The notes under the pieces: model-generated
The model's database searches: none
The model's input: only the letters and a program-made list of their open reading frames with translations
Told to the model about the DNA's origin: nothing
Assembly: GCA_947625655.1 (NCBI GenBank)
Contig: CANQPD010000005.1
Coordinates: 62,001 to 126,000 of the forward strand
Direction of reading: 5' to 3'
DNA length: 64,000 nt
Origin: an uncultured Dysosmobacter sp.
Lineage (GTDB): Bacteria > Bacillota > Clostridia > Oscillospirales > Oscillospiraceae
Made by a program: the position numbers and the translations under genes
In this document: positions 2,279 to 61,880 of the stretch, piece after piece
How positions within the stretch are numbered: position 1 is the first letter of the stretch
Layout: each line of letters begins with the position of its first letter

Positions 2279-2881
2279 TCTCTCGTCCCTCCCCTGTCCA
2301 CAGGATATGGGGCGGGGGCGGGAAATATGACTGGATCAAATGCCTGCCTTTCTCCCGAGGGCGGTTCCTCCTGTCAGGGTGTGAACCCCCCCTTGGGGGA
2401 GGCGGCCCGCCAGGGCGGATGAGAGGACGGGAGTTTTTCCTTTGGTCAAGGAGGGAGAGCCGCCCTGGCGGGCGGGGGTGGGAGGTTTGCGCCGTGTTGC
2501 GGCGCTGGAATGCACCCCCCATTTTCTTTTTGAAGCATCAAAAAGAAAATGCGCCGTGCACGGTGGAAAAGAAAAAATGCTCTGATCCAAACCTGCATCC
2601 CATGTGCCATGGGATGCAGGTTTGGGGATGCGAGCCTCGTGACGATGCGTTTGGCAGAACCTTGCCGGGCTTCATCCGGCTGCGCTATATGCCGGCGTTC
2701 GGTAGGGTGTCTATGCCGCATTTGGAACACTGGGTGCAGACTTGTGGGTGCTTGTCGGAAGGGCTTCATCAACAGCCCCGCTGACGCTGCGCCGGCTTTT
2801 AAACATCCGCAGGGGCCGCGCCCCCGGACAAACAAAAGCAGACATGGATTTCCATGCCTGCTTCTCCGTCAGATCGGGCCC
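2279..2881. other. Intergenic region carrying repeat A
   Basis: There are 603 bases between rqcP and yabP on the minus strand. 2279-2454 shows no coding potential but has an imperfect repetition of a Gly-rich motif (cccttgggggaggcggcccgc and its complement near 2455-2475). 2455-2822 is repeat A. 2823-2881 has no clear feature. Confidence 0.7.
2455..2822 (+). repeat. Repeat A: single-ended copy of the structured intergenic repeat family
   Basis: One end-unit in plus orientation, made of three parts. Hairpin 1 has stem ATTTTCTTTTTGA at 2521-2533 pairing perfectly with 2538-2550, loop AGCA. The invariant palindrome CCGTGCACGG lies at 2554-2563. Hairpin 2 is an 18-bp perfect stem, 2587-2604 with 2608-2625, loop TGC, capped by CATG-N3-CATG. 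A conserved tail follows (gcctcgtgacg, cttcatccggctgcgc, gccgcatttgg, gcagacttgtgggtgctt), then ccccgctgacgct and cgcaggggcc. It is preceded by the module ccgccctggcgggcggg that also begins repeat B. No second, inverted end is present. It sits inside the rqcP-yabP junction of a conserved operon. Confidence 0.85.
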
Positions 2882-3127
2882 TTACCGTCCGATCTCTTTA
2901 TAAAGGCTCACGGCGTCGGCCTGCTTCACCGTCTCCTGGACGGACAGCACCTCCACCGTCACCGTGCGGACGCCGAAGCGCAGGGAGATCTGATCTCCCA
3001 CCTTCACATCGCAGGACGCCCGGGCGGGCCTGCCGTTGACCGTCACCAGCCCGTTGTCGCAGGCCTCGTTGGCCACCGTCCGCCGCTTGATCAGCCGCGA
3101 GACCTTCAAATACTTGTCCAAACGCAT
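2882..3127 (-). CDS. rqcP: S4-domain RNA-binding protein RqcP (YabO)
   Basis: An 81 aa protein that is almost entirely one S4 domain: MRLDKYLKVSRLIKRRTVAN, then GLVTVNGRPARASCDVKVGD and ISLRFGVRTVTVEVL. RqcP binds the stalled 60S-type large subunit together with RqcH and tRNA-Ala and drives the alanine-tailing cycle of bacterial ribosome quality control. The family's basic face (KRR, R at 4, 11 and 16) is present. It follows HU and mazG as in the B. subtilis yabN-yabO order, with hupA inserted. GGAGCG before the ATG serves as ribosome-binding site. Confidence 0.9.
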   Translation of the reverse strand: MRLDKYLKVSRLIKRRTVANEACDNGLVTVNGRPARASCDVKVGDQISLRFGVRTVTVEVLSVQETVKQADAVSLYKEIGR

Positions 3128-3248
3128 GGAACGCTCCTCCAGGCAAGGACTGCCGGCACAGACGTGCCGGCAGCCGTTTTCAAACGCTCCGCCCCGGGCC
3201 CGCGGGCGCCGGGGAAAGAGGCGGGGAAAGCCAAGGCTCCCCCTTGAG

Positions 3249-3524
3249 TTACTTCGCGACAGCGTCCTTCAGGGCCTTGCCGGCCTTGAACACGGGCACG
3301 ACAGAGGCGGGGATCTCGATGGACTCCTTGGTCTTGGGGTTGCGGCCCAGGCGGGCGGCGCGCTTCTTCACCTCGAAGGAGCCGAAGCCCACCAGCTGCA
3401 CCTTCTCGCCTTCCTTCAGGGCGCCGGTAATGGTCTCCAGAGCGGCGGTCACAACAGCCTCGGCGTCCTTTTTGGAAACGTCCGCGGCAGCGGCGACAGC
3501 GCTGATCAGTTCTGCCTTGTTCAT
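3249..3524 (-). CDS. hup: HU family histone-like DNA-binding protein
   Basis: A 91 aa protein, the normal HU length: [20 protein letters not shown] (helical dimer base), [18 protein letters not shown] (hinge to beta arm), [15 protein letters not shown] (arm tip with the intercalating Pro) and [14 protein letters not shown] at the end. It binds and bends DNA as a dimer and organises the nucleoid. The start was set at the ATG at 3524-3522 because AGGAGG lies seven to eight bases before it and HU proteins begin MNK; nine more codons are open upstream but lack such a site. HU between mazG and rqcP is a common clostridial arrangement. Confidence 0.95.
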
Positions 3525-3584
3525 GGGTATTGTCCTCCTAATCAAATTCATTTGTTCATAATATCTCTTAAACGCGGCTGCGTG

Positions 3585-4391
3585 TTAAGACAATTCCTGC
3601 TTGGCCCTTTTCCACAGGGCCTCCAGTTCCGCCTCGGTGTACTCCGCCAGGGGCTTGTCCGCGCTCTCCTCCACCCGGCGGAAGCGCGTGTCAAACTTGT
3701 CGCAGGCACAGTGGAGGGCATCCTCCGGATCCACGCCGGACATCTGGGCGATCTTGGCGGCGGCGAACAGCGTGTCGCCCACTTCCTCCCGCACGCCGTG
3801 GGACACCTCCGCGGCCCGTTCGGCCTCCACGGCCGCCCGCAGCTCCCGGACCTCCTCTTCCAGCTTGTCCAGGGCGCCGGAGATGCTGTCCCAGTTGAAG
3901 CCCGCCTTCGCGGTCTTGGAGATGATCTTCTCGGCCCGCCACAGGGCGGGCAGGGTGTGGGGCACGGCCTCGATGGCGTCAGCGGTGGAGCGCTGGCCCT
4001 TTTCCTTCCGCTTCAGGGCCTCCCAGTTCACCAGGACCTCTTCGCTGGTGTCGGCCTGCATGGTGCCGCCGAACACATGGGGGTGGCGGTACACCAGCTT
4101 CTGGGCCACGCCGTCCACCACGTCGTCCATGGTGAAGCGGCCCCGCTCCGCCTCGATCTGGGCATGAAAGGCCACCTGCATCAAAATATCCCCCAGCTCC
4201 TCGCACATGGCGTGGGGATCGTCGTGGTCGATGGCGTCCAGGGCCTCATAGGTCTCCTCCAGAAAATTCCGGCGGATGGAGCCGTGGGTCTGCTCCGCGT
4301 CCCAGGGGCAGCCCCCCGGCGCCCGCAGAAGCCGCATGATCTCCAGGAAATCCTCCCACCCATAACGGGGCTTACATTGAAAATCTACCAT
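3585..4391 (-). CDS. mazG: Nucleoside triphosphate pyrophosphohydrolase MazG
   Basis: 268 aa with two tandem MazG domains. The first has the hallmark LRAPGGCPWDAEQTHGSIRR, then EETYEALDAI and EELGDILMQVAFHA, carrying the metal-binding EExxE and ExxD motifs. The second runs LDKLEEEVRELRAAVEAE ... REEVGDTLFAAAKIA with the same motifs. MazG hydrolyses (d)NTPs to NMP and pyrophosphate, a house-cleaning reaction that removes aberrant nucleotides and lowers ppGpp indirectly. B. subtilis YabN also has a tetrapyrrole methylase domain in front; that domain is absent here. Confidence 0.93.
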   Translation of the reverse strand: MVDFQCKPRYGWEDFLEIMRLLRAPGGCPWDAEQTHGSIRRNFLEETYEALDAIDHDDPHAMCEELGDILMQVAFHAQIEAERGRFTMDDVVDGVAQKLVYRHPHVFGGTMQADTSEEVLVNWEALKRKEKGQRSTADAIEAVPHTLPALWRAEKIISKTAKAGFNWDSISGALDKLEEEVRELRAAVEAERAAEVSHGVREEVGDTLFAAAKIAQMSGVDPEDALHCACDKFDTRFRRVEESADKPLAEYTEAELEALWKRAKQELS

Positions 4392-4481
4392 ACATTATCC
4401 GCCTTTGCAAGAAATTTCGTTGGAAAACCCTTGATTTTCAAGGATTTCTTCCGGAGCCGGGGCCAGGCGGCCCCCCGCCCC

Positions 4482-6092
4482 TCATTTTAAGCGCAGAAGT
4501 TTGACGATCTTTTCGCCGTGGGGGACGGACCGCACGTCCTCCGCCCGCAGAATGCGCAGGGCGACGACCAAAACGGCATACACCGCCACGCCGGCCAGGA
4601 TGCCGCACAGCGTGGCTGCGGCGTTGGCCATATAGACGGAATGGCCGCCAAGGGCCCGGTCCGCGAAGCCGTACACCGCCCAGGCCGCGCCGCCCATGAG
4701 CACGGAGGCGACGACGGGCTTTGCGAACAGCTGGAGATACCGGGGCTTCTCCGGCGAGTATTCCCACACGAAGAACAGATTCAGCCCCACGATGACCAGA
4801 TAACAGCACAGGGTGGAAACCGGCGCGCCGTGGATGTTGATGTCAGGATTCCCCACCAGCACATAGTTCATCACCACCTTGGTGACGCCGCCGGCCCCCA
4901 CGGTGAAAATGGGCAGTTTCTCCTTGCCGTAGGTCTGGAGGATGGCGTTGGTCAGGATCATCAGGCAGATGAAGATTAAGGCAATGCCCAAAATCCGCAG
5001 ATGGGGCCCCGCCGCCAGCGCGTCCTCATACTGGGCGGGCAGCACCAGCACCATGATGGGGGTGGACAGCACGGAGAGCCCGATGCCCGCCGGCAGCGCC
5101 AGGATGGCGATGAGCCGGAAGGCGGAGGAGACGATGCGGTCGGCCCCCCTGTGGTCGCCCCTGGCCAGGGCCGCCGCCGCGAAGGGGATCAGGCTCATGG
5201 TGACGGGATAGACGAAGGACGCCACCATGTTGGGCATATCCATGGCCATACCGTACTGGCCGTTCAGCGCCGCCGCCTCTTTTTCCGACAGCAGCAGGGC
5301 GTTTTGCAGCTGGCCCATGACGATCTTGGTGTCGATGAGGTTGATGATGCTCATGGCGGAGTTGCTGAGGGTGATGGGGATGCCGATGACCAGGATCTGG
5401 CGCAGCAGCGCCCCGCTGCCGGAGGGGACGTCCAGAGAGGGGGTCCGGTTCCGGTGGGTCAGGAGATAGCCGATCAAAAACGCCATGGACAGCACGGTGC
5501 CGATGGTCACGCCGAAGATGGCGCCCGCCGCGCCCATCTCCAGGCTCTTGCCCGCCCGCAGCAGATACCAGGCCAAAGGCAGGCCGATGCCCAGCTTGCA
5601 CAGCGCCTCCAGCACCTGGCTGACGGCGGTGGGCGTCATGTTGCCCTGGCCCTGGGTGTAGCCCCGCATGCAGGCCAGCAGGCACACGCAGAACACGGCA
5701 GGGGCCAGGGCCCGGACCGCCTGGTGGGCCAGGCTGTTCTCCAAAAACTCTGCCAGCCCCTCCGCCCGGAAGAACATGAACAGGGAGCCCACCGTTCCCA
5801 GGCAGAAAAACAGCACGATGGCCGTGCGGAAGATCTTCCGCTTCTCATTTTCCCGCCCCTGGGCGTGGGCCTGGCTGGTGAGCTTGGAGATGGCCAGGGG
5901 CAGCCCGGCGGTGGAGACGGTCAGCAGCACGTTGTAAATGTAATAGGCCGTGTTGAAATAGGCCTTCCCCTCGCCGCCCAGGATATTGTTCAGCGGGAAC
6001 TTGTAAAACGCGCCGATGACCTTGACGATGGCCACAGCCGCCGCCAAAATGGCGGCGCCGCCCAGGAAGGATTGCTTTTTTTGATTCGACAT
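4482..6092 (-). CDS. Polysaccharide/lipid II flippase, SpoVB/MurJ (MVF) family
   Basis: 536 aa with about 14 hydrophobic segments. The N-terminus SFLGGAAILAAAVAIVKVIGAFYKFPLNNILGG matches the SpoVB/YabM group (A-x2-V-K-x-I-G-x2-Y-x-I-P). Inner repeats such as QILVIGIPITLSNSAMSIIN, with conserved polar residues, fit the MOP superfamily. Members flip undecaprenyl-linked sugars across the membrane; SpoVB acts in spore cortex formation. In B. subtilis yabM sits directly before yabN (mazG), as here. The ATG at 6092 is preferred over 6110 because GAGG lies before it. SpoVB versus a vegetative MurJ role cannot be separated from sequence alone. Confidence 0.88.
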   Translation of the reverse strand: MSNQKKQSFLGGAAILAAAVAIVKVIGAFYKFPLNNILGGEGKAYFNTAYYIYNVLLTVSTAGLPLAISKLTSQAHAQGRENEKRKIFRTAIVLFFCLGTVGSLFMFFRAEGLAEFLENSLAHQAVRALAPAVFCVCLLACMRGYTQGQGNMTPTAVSQVLEALCKLGIGLPLAWYLLRAGKSLEMGAAGAIFGVTIGTVLSMAFLIGYLLTHRNRTPSLDVPSGSGALLRQILVIGIPITLSNSAMSIINLIDTKIVMGQLQNALLLSEKEAAALNGQYGMAMDMPNMVASFVYPVTMSLIPFAAAALARGDHRGADRIVSSAFRLIAILALPAGIGLSVLSTPIMVLVLPAQYEDALAAGPHLRILGIALIFICLMILTNAILQTYGKEKLPIFTVGAGGVTKVVMNYVLVGNPDINIHGAPVSTLCCYLVIVGLNLFFVWEYSPEKPRYLQLFAKPVVASVLMGGAAWAVYGFADRALGGHSVYMANAAATLCGILAGVAVYAVLVVALRILRAEDVRSVPHGEKIVKLLRLK

Positions 6093-6164
6093 GGGGCGAT
6101 TACCTCGCATTTATCAAAGGATGCGCAAAGTGTTTTGCTTCAATGTATTGCCGGAAGCGGCGGT

Positions 6165-6992
6165 TTATACCCGCTTCAGGCACGCCTTCACCAGCGCGGT
6201 GAACTTCGGCCCCGCCTCCACGCCGGCGGCGATGACCTCCTCGCCGGAAAGGGGCCGGTCCAGCACTCCCGCCGCCATGTTGGTGCAAAGGGTAAAACCC
6301 AGCACATTCATGCCGCAGTGGGCGGCCACGATGGCCTCCGGCACGGTGGACATGCCCACGGCGTCGGCGCCCAGGATCCGGGCCGCCCGGACCTCGGCGG
6401 GGGTCTCATACTGGGGGCCGGGGAAGTACATATACACGCCCTGGCGCAGGGGGATGCCCAGTTCCCCGGCGGCCTGCCGGGCCGCGTCCTGCAGCGCCGG
6501 CGTGTAGACATGGCTCATGTCCGGGAACCGGGGGCCGAATTCGTCCATATTGGCCCCGCACAGGGGGCTTTCGCCAAAGAGCTTGATGTGGTCGGTGATG
6601 AGCATGATATCCCCGGCGGAAAAGGCGGTGTTCACCGCCCCGGCGGCATTGGTGACGATCAGCGTCTCCGCCCCCAGCAGCCGCAGCACCCGGACGGGGT
6701 AGCTCACGTCCGCGAAGCTCCACCCCTCGTAGGTGTGGAGCCGTCCCTGCATCACCGCCGCGTCCTGTCCGGCCAGACGGCCGAAGACGAACCGTCCCCT
6801 GTGGTCCGGGGCGGTGGAGCGCTTCATGTGGGGCACGTTCTCATAGGGCACCGCGATGGGGTCCTCCACCTGGTCCCCCAGGGCCCCCAGGCCGGAGCCC
6901 AGGATCAGCAAAACCCGGGGGCGGAAGCTCCCCAGCCGTTCCCGCAGCGCCTGGGCGCTCTCCCGGCACTGCGCATAGGTATACCGCTCCAT
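6165..6992 (-). CDS. punA: Purine nucleoside phosphorylase, trimeric type
   Basis: 275 aa. It has the class I signature RVLLILGSGLGALGDQVEDP, the phosphate-binding DHRGRFVFGRL and MQGRLHTYEGWS, the conserved VTNAAGAVN, and near the end DAVGMSTVPEAIVAAHCGM. The enzyme cleaves inosine, guanosine and deoxy forms with phosphate to free base and (deoxy)ribose-1-phosphate in purine salvage. The start was set at the ATG 6992-6990, which overlaps the TGA of the upstream zinc-ribbon gene by one base (TGATG), a typical coupled junction; a six-codon extension upstream is possible but less likely. Confidence 0.93.
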   Translation of the reverse strand: MERYTYAQCRESAQALRERLGSFRPRVLLILGSGLGALGDQVEDPIAVPYENVPHMKRSTAPDHRGRFVFGRLAGQDAAVMQGRLHTYEGWSFADVSYPVRVLRLLGAETLIVTNAAGAVNTAFSAGDIMLITDHIKLFGESPLCGANMDEFGPRFPDMSHVYTPALQDAARQAAGELGIPLRQGVYMYFPGPQYETPAEVRAARILGADAVGMSTVPEAIVAAHCGMNVLGFTLCTNMAAGVLDRPLSGEEVIAAGVEAGPKFTALVKACLKRV

Positions 6993-7384
6993 CACAGTTT
7001 CCCGCCGCATTCCCGGCAGAACGCGTCGCCCTCCCGCACGGCGGCGCCGCAGGTGGCACAGGTCCCGGCCTCCTGTTCCCGGCCGATCCCCTCGTTCACC
7101 TCCCGGAGCTCCGCCTTCAGGCCGTCGATCTCCTGGAGCTTGGCCAGCAGCACCTCCGAGTCGGTGGGGTCGCCGGTATGGGTGGCGTACAGCATGGCGC
7201 CCAGCTCCCGCAGTCCCTCGTCCACCGCGCTCTCCAGCGTGGCGGCGCGGATGCGCAGCTTGGCCACAGACAGCAGCTCCCCGGCCTTTTTCCCCACGCC
7301 GTAAGCGGCATCGGCGGCCGCGTCGCCCACCTGGAGCGCGGTGCGCTGGACGCTGTCCAGCAGTTCCTGCATTTTTTCGTTCAT
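6992..7384 (-). CDS. Small zinc-ribbon protein with helical N-terminus
   Basis: A 130 aa protein. Residues 1-105 are predicted helical and amphipathic (MNEKMQELLDSVQRTALQVG, KAGELLSVAKLRIRAATLES, LLAKLQEIDGLKAELREVNE). Residues 107-130 form a zinc ribbon, CATCGAAVREGDAFCRECGG, with CxxC-x10-CxxC. The layout resembles small clostridial proteins annotated only as zinc-ribbon or YtxH-like; function unknown. GGAGG precedes the ATG at 7384. It lies 13 bases after the uridine-kinase-like gene and is coupled to punA, so it is co-transcribed with nucleoside metabolism genes. That does not prove a shared function. Confidence 0.8.
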   Translation of the reverse strand: MNEKMQELLDSVQRTALQVGDAAADAAYGVGKKAGELLSVAKLRIRAATLESAVDEGLRELGAMLYATHTGDPTDSEVLLAKLQEIDGLKAELREVNEGIGREQEAGTCATCGAAVREGDAFCRECGGKL

Positions 7385-7397
7385 CACAGATCCTCCC

Positions 7398-8333
7398 TCA
7401 ATGATTGTCGTAGGTGCTCCCCCCGATGAATTCCCGGGCCAGGGACTCCGGCGCCACATACTTCTCGTCCATGGCCTCAATCCGCTCAAAGCCCCGCAGC
7501 ATGTCGTCCACCACGTCGTATTTCCCCGCGGGGATGGCCTCCAGCAGGGGCACCACAAAGGGCTTCAGCACGGCGAACTCAAAGGCCAGGGAGGAGTCGA
7601 ACATGATGTGGGCGTTCTCCTTATAGGGGGAGATGTACAGCTTCTCGCCCCGGCGGACATTGGCCCACATCTTCAGGGTGAAGCCGGCGTCGCTGCCCCG
7701 GAACTTGTAGTCCCGGACGATGCGGCGGCAAAGCCGCAGCCAGGGGTGCTGAAAGACGATCTTGCCGTCGCCGTCCACCAGGTTGCTGCGGGCGGCGATA
7801 TACAGCTTGAAGGCGTGGGGGTTCTTGCCCACGATGATGTCGTTCAGGGCGTGGATGCCCTCGAAGATGGCCAGCTCGTCCGGCCCCAGGCGCAGGGGCT
7901 GGGACAGGATGTCAGAGCGCATCTGGCGGGCAAACTCGTACTTGGGCACATGGATGGTCTCGCCCCGGTCCAGCATGGCAAAGTGCCGGTTCAGCAAATC
8001 CACGTCCAGGCAGAAGGGGGACTCGAAATCAATGGCGCCCTCCCGGTTCCGGGGGGCCGTCTCCGGGTCCACGGTGTTGAAATAGTTGTCCATGGAGATG
8101 GTGTGGGTCTCGATGCCCATTTTCTCCAGCTGCTCCTCGATCTTCAGCGCCGTGGTGGTCTTGCCGGAGCCGGAGGGGCCGGAGAGCAGGATGACATGGG
8201 ATTCGCCCCGGTGGTCGGCAATCTTTTTCGCCGCGTTCTCCACCTTTTTGGCAAAGGCGGCGTCGCACTCGGCGGCAAAGGCGCCGGGGTCGCTGCGGAT
8301 GGCTTCATTGATCTGCGTCAGTGAATACGGCAT
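7398..8333 (-). CDS. Uridine kinase-like P-loop nucleoside kinase
   Basis: 311 aa. It has a Walker A motif GPSGSGKTTTALKIEEQLEK at about residues 51-70, MDNYFNTVDPETAPRNREG matching the substrate loop of the uridine kinase/phosphoribulokinase fold, and the Walker B-like ELAIFEGIHALND. About 35 extra residues precede the kinase domain. The family phosphorylates uridine or cytidine with ATP or GTP; the exact substrate is uncertain. It starts one base after the hemZ stop and leads to the zinc-ribbon and punA genes, which supports a nucleoside salvage role. Confidence 0.85.
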   Translation of the reverse strand: MPYSLTQINEAIRSDPGAFAAECDAAFAKKVENAAKKIADHRGESHVILLSGPSGSGKTTTALKIEEQLEKMGIETHTISMDNYFNTVDPETAPRNREGAIDFESPFCLDVDLLNRHFAMLDRGETIHVPKYEFARQMRSDILSQPLRLGPDELAIFEGIHALNDIIVGKNPHAFKLYIAARSNLVDGDGKIVFQHPWLRLCRRIVRDYKFRGSDAGFTLKMWANVRRGEKLYISPYKENAHIMFDSSLAFEFAVLKPFVVPLLEAIPAGKYDVVDDMLRGFERIEAMDEKYVAPESLAREFIGGSTYDNH

Positions 8334-8334
8334 A

Positions 8335-9849: not shown

Positions 9850-9858
9850 ACCGTGTCC

Positions 9859-10476: not shown

Positions 10477-10521
10477 GGGGCGCACCTCCTTGGCACGAAA
10501 TGATGGGCCGAACAGCCCCGT

Positions 10522-10965: not shown

Positions 10966-11000
10966 GGGAAGACTCCTTTCGGGAAGAGGTTGGGGAGGGG

Positions 11001-12155
11001 AGGGCCGCCCTGGCGGGCGGGGCGGGGGAGATTGTGCCGTGTTGCGGCGTGGGGAATGTGCTCCACCGTCGCGGCAATACGATTCCCGGCCCCTGTCGGG
11101 GCCGCCAATCGTGCCGCTTCCTCGAAACAGGCTCGCTTTTTCCGCCACTGGCGGCGCTTCGCCTGTTTCCCCCCCATTTTCTTTGGTCTTGCCAAAGAAA
11201 ACGGGCCGTGCACGGTCATCTCCGCGCTAAGAGCCGCCGCTTTGCGGCGGTTGCGCTCCGAAACGCTCCGCTGCGGCTCCGTGAAAAGAAAAACGCCTTT
11301 CGTCCCAACTTTCCCCATGTCTCATGGGGAAAGTTGGGGGCTGCGGGCCTCGTAACGGTGCGACCGGATGGTACTTGCTAGGTCTCATCCGAGTGCGCTA
11401 CAGGCCGGTGACTGGTGGGGCGTTTAAGCCGCAATTTGAGACGTTGGGTGCAGAGTTGGGGGTAGTTGTCGGAAGGGCTTCTGCCCCTGGCCCCGCTGAC
11501 GCTACGGGGGCTGTTATCCTGCATTGGCGTGGCCTGCGGGGAATGCCCCGCCCGTAGGGGCCGATGCCCACATCGGCCCTTGCGTTTGCCGCAATTGGGG
11601 ACATTGGATGCGGATTTGCGGGAGGTCGACGCAAGGGCCGGAGCAGCCCACCCGTGCATTCCGCTTCGCTATGAATTCCGTGGGAGATATGATGCAGAGA
11701 TGTTGTAGGGGCGGATAGTATCCGCCCGAGACGCGGGTGCTTGCGGGAACCGGGCGGCTGATAGCCGCCCCTACGGAGGTTTTTGTAAGCAAGAAAGTTG
11801 GCGGAGAATTTGACGTTCGGCGGGCCGGGGTCGTCCCGCCCTACGGGGCTTCGGCCCCTGCGGATGTTCAAGAGCCAGCGCAGCGGCAGCGGGGCCAGAG
11901 GCAAAAGCCCTTCCAACAAGCACCTACAAGTCTGCACCCAGTGTTCCAAGTGCGGCATAAACGCCCTACCGAACGCCGGCGTATAGCGCAGCTGGGTGAG
12001 ACTTTCCAAGTTTTATCCGGCCGCACCGTGACGAGGCCCGCATCCCCCAACTTTCCCCATGTTCCATGGGGAAAGTTGGGACGAAACATTTTTTCTTTTC
12101 CACCGTGCACGGCGCATTTTCTTTTTGATGTCTCAAAAAGAAAATGGGGGGTGCA
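11001..12155. repeat. Repeat B: two-ended copy of the structured repeat family
   Basis: The left end-unit has hairpin 1 (TTTTCTTTGG at 11177-11186 with 11192-11201, loop TCTTG), CCGTGCACGG at 11206-11215 and hairpin 2 (16 bp, 11304-11319 with 11323-11338). The right end-unit is inverted: hairpin 2 at 12046-12061 with 12065-12080, CCGTGCACGG at 12103-12112, and hairpin 1 (14 bp, 12115-12128 with 12133-12146, loop TGTC). Similar flanks (ctgacgctacgggggctgttat on the left; its relative near 11870-11900 on the right) extend the inversion to roughly 300 bases per side. The centre holds gtaggggccgatgcccacatcggccc (about 11552-11577) and a palindromic block at 11705-11846. A 60 bp palindromic module is nested in the left end (11217-11282). 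Confidence 0.85.
11217..11282 (+). repeat. Nested palindromic module inside repeat B
   Basis: Between CCGTGCACGG and the gaaaagaaaaacgc segment, which are adjacent in repeat A, this copy has about 66 extra bases. They begin tccgcgctaagagccgcc and contain GCCGCC/GGCGG and GAAACGCTCC-type dyads. A related stretch is nested at a different place in repeat D (61604-61665), which suggests an independently moving small element. Confidence 0.6.
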
Positions 12156-12164
12156 AAATCCCCG

Positions 12165-41507: not shown

Positions 41508-42630
41508 TGTTTCGCCCCATTGGGGCGGGACGGAGGTTTTTCCCTGCGGGTGAGACGGAGGATGTCTGCCCGCGGGCGGGGAGCGAAGGATCACGCAGAC
41601 TTGCGTGGGAGATGCACCCCCCATTGTCGTCGAAAGAAACTGCGCTACACTCGTTCCGCCCTGTCGGGCAGAACTCGCACCGCTCCGTTTCTTTCTCCTC
41701 TCCCCACCGGACCCGCTCCGCTGGGCTCCGGCGGGGGCCCCGTTGGTCTTGCCAAAGAAAACGGGCCGTGCACGGTCCAAAAGAAAAACGCTTTTTGTCC
41801 CAACATTCCCCATGGGACATGGGGAATGTTGGGGGATGCGGGCCTCGTCACGGCGCGTCTGGCAGAAACTTGCCGGACTTCATCCGGGTGCGCTGGACGT
41901 TGGTGGGTATCCAACGTTTAAGCCGCATTTGGCCCGTGGGTACAGACTTGAGGGTGCTCATCGCAAGGGCTCTTGCCTCTGGCCCCGCTGACGCTACGGG
42001 GGCTGTTATCCTGCGTTGGCGTGGCCTGCGGGGAATGCAGCCGCCCGTAGGGGCCGATGCCCACATCGGCCCGCCGCCGCAATTGGGGCGTGGATTTGCG
42101 GGATATCAGCGCAAGGGCTGGAGCAGCCCACCTGTGCATTCCACTTTGCTATGCACTCCGTGGGTGTAGATGTCGACTTTTGTAGGGGCGGATATTATCC
42201 GCCCGAGATGTGGACGTTTGCGGAAACCGGGCGGCTATTAGCCGCCCCTACGAAGGTTTTTGTAAGCAAGAAAGTTGGTGGAGAATTTGACGTTTGGCGG
42301 ACCGGGTCGTCGCACCCTACGGCAGTAGCGTGAGATAACAGCCGCGCAGCGTCAGCGGGGCTGTTGCGGAAACCCTTCCGACAAGCACCCTCAAGTCTGT
42401 ACCCACGGGACAAATGCGGCATAAACGCCGGAAAATCTCCAACGTCCGGCACAGCCGGATGAGACTTTGCAGGTTTTATCCGGTTCCACCGTCACGCGGC
42501 CCGCATCCCCAAACTGTCCCCATGTTCCATGGGGACGGTTTGGACGAAACATTTTTTCTTTTCCACCGTGCACGGCGCATTTTCTTTTTGATGTCTCAAA
42601 AAGAAAATGGGGGGTGCAAATACCCAGCCA
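41508..42630. other. Intergenic region carrying repeat C
   Basis: 1.1 kb without a supported gene between gpr and the Cys-rich miniprotein gene. It is nearly all repeat C. The first 80 bases hold gpr-proximal GC-rich hairpins. Confidence 0.75.
41590..42615. repeat. Repeat C: two-ended copy of the structured repeat family
   Basis: The left end-unit has a shortened hairpin 1 (TTGG-tcttg-CCAA at 41743-41755), CCGTGCACGG at 41766-41775 and hairpin 2 (16 bp, 41799-41814 with 41818-41833, loop GGA). The right end is inverted: hairpin 2 at 42509-42524 with 42528-42543 (loop TTC, one G-T pair), CCGTGCACGG at 42566-42575, and hairpin 1 (14 bp, 42578-42591 with 42596-42609, loop TGTC). The centre has gtaggggccgatgcccacatcggcc (about 42046-42070) and a palindromic block at 42182-42322 that matches repeat B's 11705-11846. 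The layout is the same as B, with sequence divergence but conserved pairing. Confidence 0.85.
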
Positions 42631-45427: not shown

Positions 45428-45428
45428 A

Positions 45429-51705: not shown

Positions 51706-51708
51706 GCC

Positions 51709-52494: not shown

Positions 52495-52508
52495 AGGAGG
52501 AACGAGCG

Positions 52509-53129: not shown

Positions 53130-53133
53130 ACAA

Positions 53134-53160
53134 CAGGCCCCCGGCTTTCGCCGGGGGCCT
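53134..53160 (+). terminator. Intrinsic terminator after the ECF sigma 2 unit
   Basis: GGCCCCCGGC-tttc-GCCGGGGGCC followed by TTACTGCTTTT. Confidence 0.85.
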
Positions 53161-53178
53161 TACTGCTTTTATGGTTTT

Positions 53179-54693: not shown

Positions 54694-54723
54694 ACGTCTC
54701 TCTCCTCCATACATTCGCCGGAC

Positions 54724-54762
54724 GGTCGCATACCGACCCAGCTTGTGATTTGGTCGCGACCA
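54724..54762 (-). promoter_or_regulatory. Two candidate operator dyads in the hydrogenase leader
   Basis: TGGTCGCGACCA (54751-54762) is a perfect 12-base palindrome at the expected transcription start. GGTCG-catac-CGACC (54724-54738) is a second dyad of the same half-sites. A repressor may bind both. The half-site does not resemble the Rex or FNR consensus. Confidence 0.6.
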
Positions 54763-54763
54763 T

Positions 54764-54792
54764 ATTATATTAAATCGTCCGCGCTTTTGCAA
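54764..54792 (-). promoter_or_regulatory. Sigma-A promoter of the hydrogenase gene
   Basis: TTGCAA (54792-54787) and TATAAT (54769-54764) on the minus strand, 17-base spacer. Confidence 0.82.
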
Positions 54793-54905
54793 GGATATGT
54801 TCCAGGAAATCCAAGGAAAATCCGCTTTTTGGCGGGCTCTTTGCGCCGGCCCTTTCAGGTGAGTTTCAGTTTCCCCGGATATCCTCTGTAATACCGGCGG
54901 AAAAA

Positions 54906-54934
54906 TTGATTTTTCGTATCATTTGCGGTATAAT
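54906..54934 (+). promoter_or_regulatory. Promoter of the DUF4340 gene
   Basis: TTGATT (54906-54911) and TATAAT (54929-54934), 17-base spacer; long leader (about 115 bases) before the ATG. Confidence 0.8.
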
Positions 54935-55059
54935 GCGGTATTACCCGCAGTGCGCAGGAACCGGCGCGGTTTTCCGGGACATCCCGGCCGCCGGCAGGCG
55001 TACCGCCCTCTGCCCGCCGCGGGGTCCAAACACGACCGAGCCGACAGGAGGATTTTCCC

Positions 55060-56073: not shown

Positions 56074-56109
56074 CCGGCTTTTCCGTGATCTTGAAAGGAG
56101 GGCTTTTTC

Positions 56110-56790
56110 ATGCGCGTGCTGGTGGTCGAGGACGAGGTGCGGCTGGCCTCCACCCTGCAGGACCTGCTGGAATTGAACGGCTACACCACCGATATCTGCC
56201 ACGACGGCGAGGCGGGGCTGGACAACGCCCTGTCCGCCATTTACGACGTGGTGGTGCTGGACGTGATGCTGCCCAGGATGGACGGCTTCACCGTGGTGCA
56301 GCGGCTGCGGGCCGCGGGAAACAGCACGCCGGTGCTGATGCTCACCGCCCGGTCAGAGGTAAGCGACCGGGTGACGGGGCTGGACCGGGGGGCGGACTAC
56401 TATCTGACCAAGCCCTTCGAGCCCCGGGAGCTGCTGGCCTGCATCCGGGCTCTGTCCCGGCGGCAGCCGGAGCTGCGGAACACCGACGCCCTGGAATACG
56501 GCGATCTGAAGCTGGACAAGAACTCCTTTACCCTTCTCTGCGGGGAGCGGTCCGTCCGCCTGAGCCGCAAGGAATTCGACATGATGGAGCTGCTGATGCT
56601 GAATCAGGAGATCGTCATTACCAAGGAAAATCTGCTTTTGAAGATCTGGGGCTATGAGTCCGACGCGGAGGACAACAATGTGGAGGTCTATATCTCCTTC
56701 CTCCGCCGGAAGCTGGCCCATCTGCGCTCCACCGTGAAGATCAAGACCATCCGCATGGTGGGATACTGCCTGGAGCGCTCTTCGGATTGA
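56110..56790 (+). CDS. OmpR-family response regulator 1
   Basis: 226 aa. Receiver domain MRVLVVEDEVRLASTLQDLL with phospho-acceptor Asp51 (VVVLDVMLPRMDG) and LTKPFEPRELLACI. The C-terminal winged helix is LDKNSFTLLCGERSVRLSRK ... FLRRKLAHLRSTVKIKTIRM. AAAGGAGG before the ATG. Pairs with the histidine kinase 69 bases downstream. Confidence 0.93.
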   Translation: MRVLVVEDEVRLASTLQDLLELNGYTTDICHDGEAGLDNALSAIYDVVVLDVMLPRMDGFTVVQRLRAAGNSTPVLMLTARSEVSDRVTGLDRGADYYLTKPFEPRELLACIRALSRRQPELRNTDALEYGDLKLDKNSFTLLCGERSVRLSRKEFDMMELLMLNQEIVITKENLLLKIWGYESDAEDNNVEVYISFLRRKLAHLRSTVKIKTIRMVGYCLERSSD

Positions 56791-56859
56791 CGGTTTCCAC
56801 GATTTCCACCGTGTTTTCCACATTTTCCACAGACTTTTCGACAAGGGGGAACGCTTGTC
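56791..56859 (+). repeat. TTTCCAC direct repeats before histidine kinase 1
   Basis: TTTCCAC occurs four times, at 56794, 56803, 56815 and 56824, spaced 9, 12 and 9 bases. This is between the regulator stop and the kinase start. Two copies read TTTTCCACA, one mismatch from a DnaA box. It may be a short sequence repeat or an RNA-binding or processing site. Confidence 0.7.
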
Positions 56860-58098
56860 ATGATCCGAAAACTGCGGCTGAAGCTGGTGGCCATCTGCAT
56901 GGCCATGGTCACCGCCGTGCTGGCGGCGGTGTTCCTGTCCGTCTTTTTCGCCATGCGGCGGAATGTGCAGGAGCTGAGCCGCCAGCTCCTCTTCCGGGTG
57001 GCCCAGGAGAGCGGCTATTCCCTGGGCGGGCAGCCCAGCGCGGGCATCGCCATCGACGGCGACCAGACCATCCTGCTGCCCTATTTCACCGTGAATGTCT
57101 ATTCCGGCAGGGGCACCTATTACGCCGACGTCACCGGGGGCACCTACGCCAATCTGGACGACAGCGAGGAGCTGACCGCCATTTTGCGGGACTGTCTGGC
57201 CCAGGACGCCAGCGAGGGCTTTATCCGGGACTATCACCTGCGGTATCTGCGCCAGGACAAGGGGCTGTACATCCGGCTGGCCTTTGTGGACACCTCCATG
57301 GAGCGGGCGATCCTTCAGGAGATGATGGGCAGCTATCTGGTCATCGGCGCCGCGGCGCTGCTGCTTTTGCTGGGGGTGTCCATCCTCCTCTCCCGATGGG
57401 CCACCCGGCCGGTGGAAAACGCCTGGCGGCAGCAGCGCCAGTTTTTGTCCGACGCCTCCCACGAGCTGAAAACGCCGCTGACCGTCATCCTCTCCAACGC
57501 GGAGCTGCTGGAGACGGCGCAGCTTGCGGACAGGCCCGCCCGCTGGGCGGACAACATCCGCACCGAGGCCCAGCAGATGAAGTCCCTGGTGGAGGAGATG
57601 CTGACCCTGGCCCGGGCGGACAATATGGTCCGCACTGTTGTGCTTGCGGAGGTCTCCCTCTCTGACATCGCCGCCGACTGTGCCCTGGCCTTTGAGCCCG
57701 TGGCCTTCGAGGCGGGAAAACCGCTGGAGTATCAGATCAAGGAGGACGTGACGGTGCCGGGGGACCGGGACAAGCTGCGCCAGCTGGTCTCCGTCCTGCT
57801 GGACAACGCCATCAAATACGGCGCGGAGGGCGGGACCATCACCCTGTCCCTCCAGAAGACGGACCGGGCGGCAAGGCTTACGGTGTCCAACCCCGGCGCG
57901 CCCATCCCCGCGGAGCAGCTGCCCCGGCTGTTCGAGCGGTTTTACCGGGCGGACGCCTCCCGGGGGGAGCAGTCCGGCTTTGGCCTGGGGCTGCCCATCG
58001 CCCGGACCATCGCGGAGGAGCACAAGGGCTCCCTGCGGGCCGAGAGCGACGCATCGTCCACGCGGTTTATCTTCACCATGCCGCTGAAACGGTCATAA
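56860..58098 (+). CDS. Sensor histidine kinase 1
   Basis: 412 aa. Two membrane segments (about residues 11-32 and 160-178) bracket an extracytoplasmic sensor of about 120 residues. A HAMP-like linker leads to the H-box FLSDASHELKTPLTVILSNA with His201. N-box LVSVLLDNAIKYGAEGG and G2 box SGFGLGLPIARTIAEEH follow. It phosphorylates response regulator 1. AAGGGGGA lies before the ATG. Confidence 0.92.
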   Translation: MIRKLRLKLVAICMAMVTAVLAAVFLSVFFAMRRNVQELSRQLLFRVAQESGYSLGGQPSAGIAIDGDQTILLPYFTVNVYSGRGTYYADVTGGTYANLDDSEELTAILRDCLAQDASEGFIRDYHLRYLRQDKGLYIRLAFVDTSMERAILQEMMGSYLVIGAAALLLLLGVSILLSRWATRPVENAWRQQRQFLSDASHELKTPLTVILSNAELLETAQLADRPARWADNIRTEAQQMKSLVEEMLTLARADNMVRTVVLAEVSLSDIAADCALAFEPVAFEAGKPLEYQIKEDVTVPGDRDKLRQLVSVLLDNAIKYGAEGGTITLSLQKTDRAARLTVSNPGAPIPAEQLPRLFERFYRADASRGEQSGFGLGLPIARTIAEEHKGSLRAESDASSTRFIFTMPLKRS

Positions 58099-58103
58099 AA
58101 CTA

Positions 58104-58166
58104 TCGGGCGGCTGATAGACGCCCCTACCGAAAGAAAATCCGTAGGGGCGGCTATCAGCCGCCCCT
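58104..58166. repeat. Solo palindrome related to the centre of repeats B and C
   Basis: GGGCGGCTGATAGACGCCCC and GTAGGGGCGGCTATCAGCC form a dyad with the internal break ctaccgaaagaaaatcc. This is the same palindromic block found in the middle of repeats B (11705-11778) and C (42182-42252), here without end-units. It lies past the kinase 1 stop, where it may also act as a terminator. Confidence 0.8.
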
Positions 58167-58209
58167 TGTCCGCACAATCTCCACAGAGCGGTTTTGCCGC
58201 TCTGCAAAA

Positions 58210-58251
58210 TCGTAAGAAATTCGTAAGATTTTCGTCGGCCGTCCCGTAAGA
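58210..58251 (+). promoter_or_regulatory. TCGTAAGA direct repeats upstream of response regulator 2
   Basis: TCGTAAGA at 58210-58217 and 58221-58228 (11-base spacing, one helical turn), with a third copy CCGTAAGA at 58244-58251. This arrangement is typical of OmpR-family binding sites and suggests autoregulation. Confidence 0.65.
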
Positions 58252-58291
58252 AATTCCCGATATTCTGAAGCTGGCTCAAGGAGGGAAGCAC

Positions 58292-58993
58292 ATGAACGAA
58301 TGCATCCTGGTTGTGGATGACGACCCTGAGATCGTCGGCGCCATCGCCATCACCCTGGAGCGGGAGGGCTACCGCGTCCTGCGGGCCTACTCTGGGCTGG
58401 AGGCCCTGGACCTGGCCCTGGACCCGGCGGTGCGGCTGATCCTCATTGATGTGATGATGCCGAAGCTGGACGGCCTGTCCGCCCTGATCCGCATTCGGGA
58501 GAAGCGGAACCTGCCCGTCATCGTCCTCTCCGCCAAGAGCGAGGACACGGACAAGATCCTGGGCCTCTCCATGGGGGCGGACGACTATATCACCAAGCCC
58601 TACAATCCCCAGGAGCTGGCTGCCCGGGTGCGGAGCCAGCTGCGGCGGTACACGTCTTTGGGGGACATCCACGCAGAGGGGCGGGGGAACGTCATCGTCA
58701 ACGGGCGGCTCCGGTACGACCCGGACAAGTCCCTTCTGCTGGCGGACGGCGATCCGGTGCGGCTGACCCCCACGGAGACCAGGATCGTGGATCTGCTGAT
58801 GCGCAATCCCGGCCGGGTGTTCCCGGCGGAGGAGATCTACCGCCGGGTGTGGAACGAGGACGCCTACGCCTGCGAGAACACGGTGATGGTCCACATCCGC
58901 CGCATTCGGGAGAAGATCGAGCTGAATCCCAAGGAGCCAGATTACATTAAGGTGGTGTGGGGCATTGGATACAAAATGGAACAGCACGGATAA
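58292..58993 (+). CDS. OmpR-family response regulator 2 (VanR-like)
   Basis: 233 aa. Receiver ILVVDDDPEIVGAIAITLER with phospho-acceptor Asp53 (LIDVMMPKLDG), ADDYITKPYNPQELAARVRS, and a winged helix ending ENTVMVHIRRIREKIELNPK ... VVWGIGYKME, as in VanR-type regulators. AAGGAGGG before the ATG. The last 29 bases overlap the following kinase gene. Confidence 0.93.
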   Translation: MNECILVVDDDPEIVGAIAITLEREGYRVLRAYSGLEALDLALDPAVRLILIDVMMPKLDGLSALIRIREKRNLPVIVLSAKSEDTDKILGLSMGADDYITKPYNPQELAARVRSQLRRYTSLGDIHAEGRGNVIVNGRLRYDPDKSLLLADGDPVRLTPTETRIVDLLMRNPGRVFPAEEIYRRVWNEDAYACENTVMVHIRRIREKIELNPKEPDYIKVVWGIGYKMEQHG

Positions 58994-61274
58994 GGGGCCG
59001 GAGGAGGCCCCGGAGCTGGTTACAGTGAAAACTCTCCCAGAGGCGGCGGGATCCGCCGCCGTGGAACAGCCCTCCCCGGGGAGGGGGCGGCAGGCCAGGG
59101 CCGTGATTGGATTTCTGGCCTTTTTCCTGGGGCTGAGCCTGACCCTGGGCAGCCTGGGGGCCATCGCGGGGCGGCTGGTCTGGCAGCGGGGTGCCAGCCC
59201 GCTGGAGACAGACTGGCAGGAGACGGACGCCTTCCGGGGGCAGGTCTCCGCCTATCTGCGGGACTTTCTGACCCTGGCGGCGGGGGAGGAGCTGACGTGG
59301 TACAACGACTGGTATGGGGGCGCCGCCACCGAGGAGGTGCTGGTCTCTGGCTGGGGCGGCGTTGCTGTTTCGGAGTATGAGACCGCGCTCACCCCTGTTC
59401 CCTCCTACCCCGCCTACCCCGATGACATGGACCCGGACTACTGGTATCAGAACGACAAAAACGTGCTGTACCGCATCCGCAGGCAGGGCAGCGTATACAG
59501 TCCAGGTGAATGGTATTCCAACACCGACGGCGCGGTGCTGAGCCGCAATCTGCCGGAGGGCTATCATTTTCTGCTGACCTTCGCCAACGGCAAGGTCACC
59601 ATTCTCAAGGACGGCGTGGAGCTGGACGTCTACGGCGACGGCGTTTACACCGAAGATTCCGATTGGTTCGTCCCCGGCTACGACAACTTTCCGGCAGGGG
59701 ACAATGTGAGCAGCGCGGTGGTGTACATGGCCGTCCGGGAGACGCCCACCCAGTATTACAGCACTGACTACGGCGTCCGGACCAGCGATATGTACTGGCC
59801 GTACCAGAGCCTGCAGGAGGCCCGCTCCTTTTGGCTGACTCAGGCGGCGGCGCTGGCGGCGGGCCTTGTTCTGCTGGCCGTGTGGTTTGCCCTGCGGCGG
59901 GAGAAGCGGCTGGCGGATGAAAAGCTGGCCTCCTGGACGGTGCATGTGTGGACGGAGCCGCGGTTTCTGGCGGTGGCGGCATGCCTGCTGTGGATGACCG
60001 CCGGGAACTCCTATGTATCGGATATGGCCTGGGCCCTCCGCCATGAGCTTTTTCAGGGCTGGAACTATTGGGCCGGCCTGGCGGGGCGGTATCTGCTGTG
60101 CCTGCCGCTCTCCAACAGCCCCGCGCTGCTGGCGCTGGTGTGGGTGGTGTGGCTGATCCACAACGACCATAGGTACAATCCCAAGGAGAGGCGGCGGAGC
60201 CTGCTCCGTGGGCTGTTCCGCGCCCTGCGGGCGCGGGATCTGAAACGGCCTGTGCAGAAGCGGCTGGCCCGGAACTCCGTAACACGTTTTTTGATTCTTC
60301 TGGCCGTTTTTCTGCCGTCCATGATTTTGGCAATCAGATTTAGCTACGATGGGACTTTTGTACTGTTTTTCGCTGCCGCCGCGCTGATCCTGATTCTTCT
60401 GCTCTACACACTGTGGGGCCGCCGTGACCGCGCTCTGGCCCGGGACATCGGCTTTCTTTCCGACCAGGTGGAGGCCATCCGCTCCGGCGACCTGTCCACG
60501 CCGTTGGAACTGCCGGAAGACGCCGACCTGCGCCAGACGGCGGAGGCCCTGAACGACATCCAGGCGGGGCTGCATCGGGCGCTGGAGGAGCGGACCCGCA
60601 GCGAGCGGATGAAGGTGGAGCTGATCTCCAACGTGTCCCACGATCTGAAAACGCCCCTGACCTCCATCCTGTCCTACGCGGAGCTGCTGCGGCAGGAGGA
60701 GCTTACGGGCGCGGCGGCGGATTACGCCCGCATCATCGACGAGAAGGCCCAGCGTCTCAGCGCCATGGTGCAGGATGTGTTCGAGGTCAGCAAGGCCGCC
60801 GCCAGCCAGCTGCCCGTCCATCTGGAGCGGCTGGATTTGGCCAAGCTGCTGCGGCAGACCCTGGCGGACATGGACGATCCCATCCGGGCCAGCCAGCTGA
60901 CCTTCAAGCTCGACCTGCCGGAGGAGCCGGTGATGATCGTGGCGGACGGCAAGCGGCTGTACCGGGTGTTCCAGAACCTGATCCAGAACGCCCTGCAGTA
61001 CGCCCTGGAGGGCAGCCGGGTGTACCTGAGCCTGAAAACCGGCCAGGGCAGGGCGGAGGCCAGTCTCCGCAACACCTCCCGCAGCGAGCTGCCGGAGGGG
61101 GTGGACTTCACCGCCCGGTTCGTCCGGGGGGACGAGAGCCGCACCGACGGCGGCAGCGGGCTGGGGCTGTCCATTGCCAGCTCCTTCACCGAGGCCTGCG
61201 GCGGGGAGTTCCGGGTGGAGACCGTGGCGGATCTGTTTACCGCCGTGGTGAGTTTTCCGCTGGCGGAGGGATAG
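58965..61274 (+). CDS. Sensor histidine kinase 2, large (VanS-like core)
   Basis: 769 aa, starting at a TTG inside the regulator gene, after AAGGTGG. A first membrane segment is at about residue 50 (VIGFLAFFLGLSLTLGSLGA), followed by an extracellular region to about 290 rich in Trp, Tyr and Asp. Then come several further membrane segments (ALAAGLVLLAVWFALR, FLAVAACLLWMTAGNSYVSD, YLLCLPLSNSPALLALVWVV, FLILLAVFLPSMILA, LFFAAAALILILLLY), HAMP, H-box ISNVSHDLKTPLTSILSYAE (His559), N-box LIQNALQYA and G2 GSGLGLSIAS. The multi-pass sensor is much larger than VanS. Signal unknown. Confidence 0.9.
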   Translation: MDTKWNSTDKGPEEAPELVTVKTLPEAAGSAAVEQPSPGRGRQARAVIGFLAFFLGLSLTLGSLGAIAGRLVWQRGASPLETDWQETDAFRGQVSAYLRDFLTLAAGEELTWYNDWYGGAATEEVLVSGWGGVAVSEYETALTPVPSYPAYPDDMDPDYWYQNDKNVLYRIRRQGSVYSPGEWYSNTDGAVLSRNLPEGYHFLLTFANGKVTILKDGVELDVYGDGVYTEDSDWFVPGYDNFPAGDNVSSAVVYMAVRETPTQYYSTDYGVRTSDMYWPYQSLQEARSFWLTQAAALAAGLVLLAVWFALRREKRLADEKLASWTVHVWTEPRFLAVAACLLWMTAGNSYVSDMAWALRHELFQGWNYWAGLAGRYLLCLPLSNSPALLALVWVVWLIHNDHRYNPKERRRSLLRGLFRALRARDLKRPVQKRLARNSVTRFLILLAVFLPSMILAIRFSYDGTFVLFFAAAALILILLLYTLWGRRDRALARDIGFLSDQVEAIRSGDLSTPLELPEDADLRQTAEALNDIQAGLHRALEERTRSERMKVELISNVSHDLKTPLTSILSYAELLRQEELTGAAADYARIIDEKAQRLSAMVQDVFEVSKAAASQLPVHLERLDLAKLLRQTLADMDDPIRASQLTFKLDLPEEPVMIVADGKRLYRVFQNLIQNALQYALEGSRVYLSLKTGQGRAEASLRNTSRSELPEGVDFTARFVRGDESRTDGGSGLGLSIASSFTEACGGEFRVETVADLFTAVVSFPLAEG

Positions 61275-61289
61275 GGGGCGCCGCAGCGC

Positions 61290-61880
61290 GGCGCGGGAAT
61301 GCACCCCCCATTCTTTTTCGTCTTGCCGAAAAAGAATGCGCCGTGCACGGTGGAAGAAAAAGACGCTCTGTCCAAACTGGCATCCCATGTGCCATGGGAT
61401 GCCAGTTTGGGGATGCGGCGGCTGGAAGCAACGGCCGGATAAAATTTGGATGGCTTCATCCGGCTGCGCTGGATGTTTGCGGTGATCCGGCGTTTATGCC
61501 GCATTTGGCCCGTGGGGGCAGACTTGTGGGCGCTTATCGCAAGGGCTTCTGCCCCTGGCCTCGCTGACGCTACGGGGGCTTTTTAATATCCGTAGGGGCC
61601 GATCTCCGGCCTAAGAGCCGCCCTGCGGGCGGTTGGCCTCCGAAAGGCGGCCTGCGGGCCGCTCTGCCCACATCGGCCCTTGCGTATGCCGCATTTGGGA
61701 CGTGGGGGCTGATTCGGGGTGCTCATCGCAAGGGCTTTTGCCTCCGGCCCGCTGACGCTATGCTGGCTGTTTCTCCGCATTCATGCGGTGTGTCATCCCG
61801 TAGGGCGGGACGACCCGGCCCGCCGCTGCGCGGGCTTTTGTGCCTGCGCCGGTATGTCCTGCGGGGAAGGCGACCCTCCG
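61290..61880 (+). repeat. Repeat D: single-ended, partly duplicated copy of the structured repeat family
   Basis: The end-unit has hairpin 1 (CATTCTTTTTCG at 61309-61320 with 61327-61338), CCGTGCACGG (61341-61350) and hairpin 2 (18 bp, 61372-61389 with 61393-61410, loop TGC). The tail (cttcatccggctgcgctgg, gccgcatttggcccgtggg, cagacttgtgggcgctta, cgctgacgctacgggggct) is present. The later block atcgcaagggctt-t-gcc and gctgacgct recurs (61533-61580 and 61723-61765), a partial tandem duplication. A 60 bp module related to the one in repeat B is inserted at 61604-61665, splitting the gtaggggccgat / cccacatcggccc block. No inverted right end. Confidence 0.82.
61604..61665 (+). repeat. Nested palindromic module inside repeat D
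   Basis: Starts ctccggcctaagagccgcc and ends ggccgctctg, with internal dyads GCCGCCCTGCGGGCGG and AAGGCGGCCTGCGGGCCGC. It interrupts the block that is continuous in repeats B and C. Related in sequence to the module at 11217-11282 in repeat B, but at a different insertion point. Confidence 0.65.

Follow-up and report, generated by a model that had tools for sequence, protein, structure and literature searches.

The end-units of a family of dispersed non-coding repeats, present in Oscillibacter and in some related gut bacteria, contain three strands that change in step. The strongest regularity, which was absent from the first-pass annotation of the window (the whole 64-kb stretch of DNA analysed), is a mirror symmetry: the purine tract that follows a palindrome is the purine arm of an A/T-rich hairpin read backwards, in a fixed register. 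Ordinary base pairing does not require such a mirror order; a triple helix does. We infer that this order marks an intrastrand triple helix, which in these units would be combined with a pseudoknot. The best reading of the repeats is that they are non-autonomous, REPIN-like elements whose ends are recognised as folded DNA.

Copies, range and anatomy of the repeats

The four intergenic regions with six end-units named in the first-pass annotation were all recovered in the window, both by reading and with a covariance model (Table 1). The repeats also occur elsewhere in the 3.15 Mb Oscillibacter-like host genome, with a total of 40 end-units found as singles or inverted pairs that are nearly always intergenic; the covariance model search returned 50 rows, 10 of which were counted as reverse-strand echoes. 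The suggestion that such a family could number hundreds per genome proved too high: among the other family genomes that were searched, the eleven with most units contain 7–25 (with no more than 25 candidates scored per genome). Matches to the model were found in 22 of 200 genomes sampled over the family, belonging to 19 of 106 genera, and class-wide in one of 291 genomes, which is the host itself; both searches used strict filters that miss weak forms. A blastn search with unit A matched, apart from the host, 16 of 24 same-genus relatives; 15 genomes from other families gave no match. In a named collection with at least 114 matching stretches, the 80 loci listed are labelled Oscillibacter, Dysosmobacter, Oscillospiraceae bacterium or uncultured Clostridia. 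Many of the genomes in the comparison are incomplete metagenome assemblies. A search of the open-licence PMC literature found no description of these Oscillospiraceae repeats.

From outside to inside, a unit consists of one or two hairpins of changing sequence (H-1 and H0), an outer strand (TGCAC in the host), a C-run, a pyrimidine arm, a loop, a purine arm, a linker with the palindrome CCGTGCACGG, a second purine tract, a hairpin H3, and a tail that finishes near a centre motif. The linker is typically 12–17 nt long in the printed unit sequences, and 78 distinct forms of H3 were counted in the units tested. The centre motif, gctgacgct, is located at positions 2780, 11495, 41987, 61563 and 61751 of the window, with its inverse at 42348. 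CCGTGCACGG has 40 exact sites in the host genome, compared to two for a reversed control; two of these sites (C7:79831 and C10:33666) are not units and are both absent from the covariance model's list, and three host units contain a variant. The palindrome, initially described as invariant, is locally constant but varies in other species. Similarly, the CATG-N3-CATG cap is present in all six window units but missing from many units elsewhere, and the common tail is shared but imperfect, with unit D lacking the ctcgt-acg piece and B-left containing the variants tccgag and gccgcaatttga.

The outermost sequences are the least conserved part of a unit, and those at the left and right of a single element need not agree; the two ends may even be of different sequence type. 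One H0-type pattern has nine exact matches in the host genome, all nine beside units, which speaks against the explanation that H0 represents mere host hairpins. Some outer hairpins beside gene starts do look host-like.

The loci examined contain 62 inverted pairs, with an inner distance of 289–1077 bases in 60 and of 1594 and 5251 bases in the other two; the pair separated by 5251 bases is probably two unrelated solo units. A called gene was found inside only one of 54 pairs, and the interior is non-coding in nearly all of them. Reading by eye from sequence, a few elements (L175 and L179) contain small genes resembling XRE-type regulators together with a second conserved small protein, and ORFs similar to this cargo are found in L171, L172 and L226. 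L175 and L179 occupy the same site in two species, with flanks that are 91–92% identical, and each holds the XRE-like gene and the second small gene; divergence looks far greater in the interiors than in the flanks, which suggests that the cargo may have been exchanged.

Separate repeats are nested within several of the units. The repeat of ~110 bp at 11063–11160 in B-left, a separate small dispersed repeat, has 13 matching places in an 861-kb Vescimonas fastidiosa plasmid and also matches several human-gut phage contigs. A second nested hairpin repeat (CTAAGAGCCGCC...GGCGGTTG...CTCCGAAA) at 11217–11283, directly after the B-left palindrome, is also found in five other host units with different H1 sequences, placed as if by site-specific insertion or spread by gene conversion, and a similar piece is located in D at about 61620–61670.

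Table 1. Units, elements and their parts in the 64-kb window
Feature	Positions	Strand	Basis or remark
Unit A, outer hairpin H-1	2460–2476	+	read from sequence
Unit A, outer hairpin H0	2489–2505	+	read from sequence
Unit A, core	2511–2577	+	covariance model R1, 83.1 bits; mirror and loop tests
Unit A, outer strand TGCAC	2511–2515	+	
Unit A, C-run	to 2520	+	
Unit A, pyrimidine arm	2521–2532	+	
Unit A, purine arm	2539–2550	+	
Unit A, palindromic linker	2551–2566	+	loop can pair with outer strand
Unit A, third (mirror) tract	2567–2576	+	
Unit A, hairpin H3	2587–2625	+	CATG-N3-CATG cap; read from sequence
Unit A (solo), tail	2626–2825	+	centre motif GCTGACGCT at 2780–2788; blastn family in host genome
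Element B and intergenic surroundings	10967–12164		between RelA/SpoT and D-Tyr-tRNA deacylase genes (Pfam)
B-left unit	11166–11338	+	model match
B-left, core	11166–11218	+	model match
B-left, palindrome	11206–11215	+	
B-left, third tract	11284–11293	+	displaced by insert
B-left, hairpin H3	11304–11338	+	
B-left, nested insert	about 11063–11160		before core
B-left, nested insert	about 11217–11283		between palindrome and third tract
B-right unit, core	12089–12155	-	about 9 bases from RelA/SpoT stop codon (12165)
C-left unit, core	41613–41789	+	
C-left, palindrome	41766–41775	+	
C-left, third tract	41779–41788	+	
C-left, nested insert	about 41627–41745		in H1
C-right unit, core	42552–42618	-	model match, 83.1 bits
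Unit D (solo), core	61300–61364	+	model match, 73.5 bits
Unit D, hairpin H0	about 61278–61294	+	read from sequence
Unit D, third tract	about 61354–61362	+	read from sequence
Unit D, hairpin H3	about 61372–61410	+	read from sequence
D, second partial tail copy without core	61660–61760	+	centre motif at 61751–61759; blastn, G000:C5:123685-123771

The mirror tract and the proposed loop pairing

In the fixed register, the mirror order holds at 1231 of 1269 positions (97.0%) in 122 distinct units, which are related, so that this and the following counts overstate the number of independent events. Random dealing of the third tracts, a control that ignores relatedness, gave a mean of 77.6% (sd 1.1, maximum 81.2 in 2000 shuffles). 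The best direct register, which keeps the relatedness as do the slid-pair controls described below, reached 75.9%. In 109 units at least nine bases were available; the first nine of these agree with the mirror only in 24, with both orders in 76, with the direct order only in one and with neither in eight, the last two groups being exceptions that count against the triplex reading.

A mirror-agnostic parser, which required only a hairpin, a C-run and any purine tract 9–22 bases later, produced 229 distinct cores; same-genus or named Oscillibacter-type loci account for 194 and other genera for 35. The 229 include a few G-rich cores that are probably outside the family. A 10-mer of the mirrored arm is present in the tract for 189 of the 192 asymmetric arms and for all 30 from other genera, the latter being best model matches rather than a random sample. 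A direct-arm 10-mer was found in 70 cores, although never alone (0/192), and together with the poor direct register this led us to reject a direct repeat, the simple alternative pairing, as the reading of the third tract. In a stricter test with 8-mers at a fixed start, the mirror held in every unit for 17 of the 23 distinct arm 9-mers. No hairpin-plus-tract was found in 24 order-1 Markov copies of the window.

Two geometries could accommodate a mirror tract: on the unit strand, a purine third strand antiparallel to the purine arm, or, on the opposite strand, a pyrimidine third strand running parallel to the purine strand there. The linker hairpin connects the purine arm to the third tract and is thus a plausible triplex connection. 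Purine-motif triplexes that are A-rich are regarded as weaker than G-rich ones, which counts against a triplex here. A background scan of the loci examined also showed two G-rich motifs of like layout outside the family, with purine arm GGGAGAGG or GAGGGAGG, hairpin linker TGGCACGGCG(A/G)AGCCGTGAC and a mirror tract; these perhaps constitute a second triplex class.

The inner (linker) loop can pair with the outer strand. In the host, loop and outer strand both read TGCA, and this pairing is therefore hidden in the palindrome; it becomes visible where the sequences change. Among 118 outer/loop combinations, TGCAC/GTGCA occurs in 90, TGCGC/GCGCC in 14 and TGAAC/GTTCA in five; the tabulation retains six rows with odd outer letters (TGGTC, TGTTC, TGCTC, TTTCC), which are probably slips of the parser onto an upstream match. 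Units upstream of uvrA have the loop pairs TGGAC/GTCCA and CCAGC/GCTGG, and other genera contribute TCAAC/GTTGA, TCAGC/GCTG, TCCAC/GTGGA, CCAAA/TTTGG, TGAAAC/GTTTCA and ACGAC/GTCGT. The longest outer/loop complement is 4.67, compared to 4.02 (maximum 4.11) when outer strands were shuffled among units; for the other genera the values are 4.06 and 3.12 (maximum 3.49).

The pairing alignment (A1) contains 31 of the 35 diverse cores, with four left out as apparently misparsed or very short. In these 31 cores, 91.3% of cells are paired versus 81.1% after shuffling, and changes on both sides were observed in 12 of 21 pairs. The covariation score is 0.294, compared to 0.126 for shuffled and at most 0.148 for slid controls. 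The number of further pair types (22 versus 20.4 shuffled) is not distinctive.

The presumed folding molecule and related repeats

The layout might be adopted by DNA, on either strand, or by RNA, on the inside-to-outside strand. The most serious alternative to a mobile DNA is a structured RNA, in which an inside-to-outside transcript folds as a pyrimidine-motif (U.A-U) triplex with a pseudoknot and acts in mRNA stability or processing; we consider it unlikely. The covariation is strong, and a pyrimidine third strand on the opposite strand would satisfy the mirror rule just as well, in a triplex that RNA can form (PMC4666352). The Gs of the tract are isolated (GG in the first nine bases of only 2 of 122), which suits isolated C+.G-C triples. 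The units, however, lie on both strands of each pair, with no preference for gene starts or gene ends. Interior non-Watson-Crick pairs on the unit strand number 7 G.T versus 10 A.C in H3 and 0 versus 3 in H1, which speaks against RNA, and 10 versus 1 in H0. The H0 excess corresponds to the outside-to-inside strand, as does the wobble of one linker-hairpin pair, seen as G.T or T.G; both are a hint in favour of one particular strand, whether as RNA or as DNA.

Folding energy is lower on the unit strand in 99 of 118 units. The difference between strands (-4.96, or -0.93 with DNA parameters) is no larger than in dinucleotide shuffles (-6.52), and since the shuffles show as much asymmetry, an RNA-strand reading of the raw folding energy is not supported. 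The comparison with Rfam proposed in the first-pass annotation gave nothing over the gathering score in the window and no match on a unit in 14 further loci, and a known RNA family was rejected on this basis. The large structured RNA put forward among the initial options is weakened, there being no consistent excess of G.U over A.C on one strand and no strand difference in folding energy beyond that of shuffles. The lack of a consistent strand signature, together with the inverted pairing, makes us lean to DNA. In a different genus, a TPP riboswitch (L316:2030-2144, + strand, 56.0 bits, over the gathering score) was observed ~120 bases outside the right unit of an element.

A U.A-U triple helix combined with a pseudoknot is known from telomerase RNA and ENE elements. 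These RNAs, and SAM-II, resemble the present units in placing a third strand in a helix beside a pseudoknot; unlike them, the present repeats are dispersed inverted pairs that display no consistent signal of selection on an RNA strand.

The closest known systems are the BoxC/TM-ECO triplex repeats and REPINs. As described in PMC4666352, BoxC/PIT/TM-ECO repeats likewise have a pyrimidine arm, a purine arm and a third purine tract on one strand, and are likewise intergenic, without strand bias, sometimes in inverted pairs and patchy among related genomes. In the terms of that text, the core layout corresponds to intrastrand triplex class II, and to class IV on the opposite strand; the mirror-ordered third tract of these classes is present here (189 of 192 asymmetric arms; 97.0% in fixed register), but the linker of 12–17 nt exceeds the loops of 1–6 nt in its ITxF search, which would consequently miss the present motif. 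TM-ECO is there a G/C-rich motif of about 37 nt in proteobacteria, with an almost invariant sequence and a second loop of 3 nt. The present repeats differ in their A-rich tract, in a hairpin linker whose loop can pair outside the motif, in three strands that change together, and in a motif that forms one end of a longer element. The main text of PMC4666352 contains neither Oscillibacter nor any Clostridi- word, and for the BoxC/PIT/TM-ECO repeats it leaves open the role of triple-stranded nucleic acid in living bacteria.

REPINs and REP-BIMEs, as described in PMC3116915, are also inverted, extragenic doublets of structured units around a spacer, with compensatory hairpin changes, and REPIN singlets are read there as remnants. 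The same source gives REPINs as short elements that end in fixed 16-mers (71 bp apart for GI in SBW25) and have a RAYT close by. The present elements share the inverted extragenic doublets (62 pairs in the loci examined; 6 of 151 unit clusters inside called genes); unlike REPINs, they are roughly 0.4–1.2 kb long, with ends that vary between and within elements in place of a fixed 16-mer, and are not clearly associated with RAYT presence (9/22 versus 51/178 family genomes). The hairpin linker, the A-rich arms and the variable sequence set the core apart from the known triplex motifs, and the absence of fixed ends and of a clearly linked RAYT sets the element apart from REPINs.

Genomic sites and proposed mobility

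Dispersed inverted pairs, junctions free of units, patchiness, and a fold conserved over sequence together are best accounted for by a non-autonomous mobile element that is recognised as folded DNA. Of the three options initially proposed, the non-autonomous transposable element is the best fit to the inverted pairs, dispersed copies, unit-free junctions and indifference to gene orientation, but neither a transposase nor a target-site duplication was found for it. Mobility is suggested by site comparison only. The rel-dtd junction of element B was searched over 61 genomes, giving loci from the host and 29 relatives. Both flanks were present in 24 of the 29, with a unit in four (L253, L255, L261 and L257) and without one in 20 (gaps of 18–415 bases). 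L257 is a bare hairpin that looks like a left end joined to a right end, and L244, one of the 20 unit-free junctions, holds tail-like text, so not all of these are pristine. Of the five relatives with one flank, two (L251 and L254) have a unit beside the rel gene. The unit-free comparison sites come from relatives only about 75–90% identical, and inspection by eye of 11 elements from five genomes showed no target-site duplication.

Another explanation is that the units are DNA structures that serve the host at certain junctions, for instance as barriers to replication or transcription, or as protein sites sensitive to supercoiling. Upstream of uvrA (host element G000:C3, locus L079), the junction has a unit in 18 of 29 relatives by reading, with very different sequences in the same architecture, and model matches in the loci of 16 of 29; this occupancy also fits long persistence or a host function. 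In addition, 145 of 151 unit clusters lie outside called genes. Against a host function, occupancy varies by species, as at the rel-dtd junction, and 8 of 24 same-genus relatives, one of them rated 100% complete, have no blastn match to unit A, a search in which diverged units are missed. We regard this explanation as improbable. In L291, upstream of uvrA, short G+C-rich hairpins with GGGACGGGG-like spacers were observed between the gene start and the unit, resembling a REP-like array.

Neither the 54 pairs nor the solo units display a gene-orientation preference, based on genes called by a simple script: pairs lie between tandem genes in 42 of 54 cases, compared to 534 of 759 adjacent gene pairs (Fisher 0.28), and the outer side of solo units faces a gene start in 30 and a gene end in 22 (binomial 0.33).

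No partner transposase was found, and in the pairs within the loci examined no transposase-like ORF is shared between the paired ends. The host contains a RAYT-like Y1 transposase gene (L095:1444-1953, - strand; G000:C3:16208-16714), located directly downstream of a uvrB-like frame as judged from translation, with relatives in 60 of 200 family genomes. Taking both 200-genome family sets as the same draw, a match to this gene occurs in 9 of the 22 genomes with units and in 51 of the remaining 178 (Fisher p 0.32), and the unit-rich genomes G080, G144, G152, G229 and G230 have no match to it. RAYT mobilisation is thus disfavoured as a general mechanism, since the presence of a RAYT shows no clear association with the elements. 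Inside the genus, 8 of 17 genomes with units have some Y1 transposase, compared to 1 of 8 without units; this is a trend in few genomes, some of them incomplete. A phage or plasmid origin is also disfavoured. Matches of element B to phages and plasmids were confined to its nested inserts, and when viral contigs were scanned with a pattern, a single unit turned up, near the end of one contig.

A classical MITE, with ordinary inverted repeats cut by a DDE transposase and secondary structure as a by-product, would account for the inverted ends, the dispersed copies and the interiors that are non-coding in nearly all pairs, but is very improbable given outermost sequences that are the least conserved and can differ between the ends of one element, stems that change by compensation, pairing and mirror covariation that speak against a by-product, and the failure to find a duplication or a partner transposase.

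For the mobile folded DNA, the following mechanism can be envisaged. Selection would keep each end-unit foldable rather than fixed in sequence, its core being laid out like an intrastrand triple helix with a pseudoknot as its cap, and two such modules, inverted, would bound a non-coding element of roughly 0.4–1.2 kb. The ends would fold when single-stranded, during replication, supercoiling or excision; a protein acting in trans would then recognise the fold rather than a fixed sequence and move the element between intergenic sites. Both the moving protein and DNA as the folding molecule are presumed in this scheme. We give about even chances to the proposal that the end-units are triplex/pseudoknot-foldable modules bounding REPIN-like mobile DNA that is moved by a protein recognising the fold. 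The broader proposition, that a DNA triplex and pseudoknot rather than sequence define the ends across the whole mobile family, as three-strand covariation over many genera suggests, is more tentative.

To our knowledge, a triple helix is a structure rarely shown to matter in living cells. BoxC/PIT/TM-ECO repeats are nearly fixed in sequence, and selection on the third strand therefore cannot be read from them. In the present family, 23 different arm 9-mers from several genera show covariation of the third strand with the hairpin; RNA helices were established by evidence of this kind, which here extends to three strands. If the interpretation is correct, it would constitute evolutionary proof of a selected intrastrand triplex and of the recognition of a mobile element by structure only. 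The repeats also provide a natural set of test molecules, for which the prediction is that scrambling the mirror tract would do harm and that a matching change in the hairpin would rescue it.
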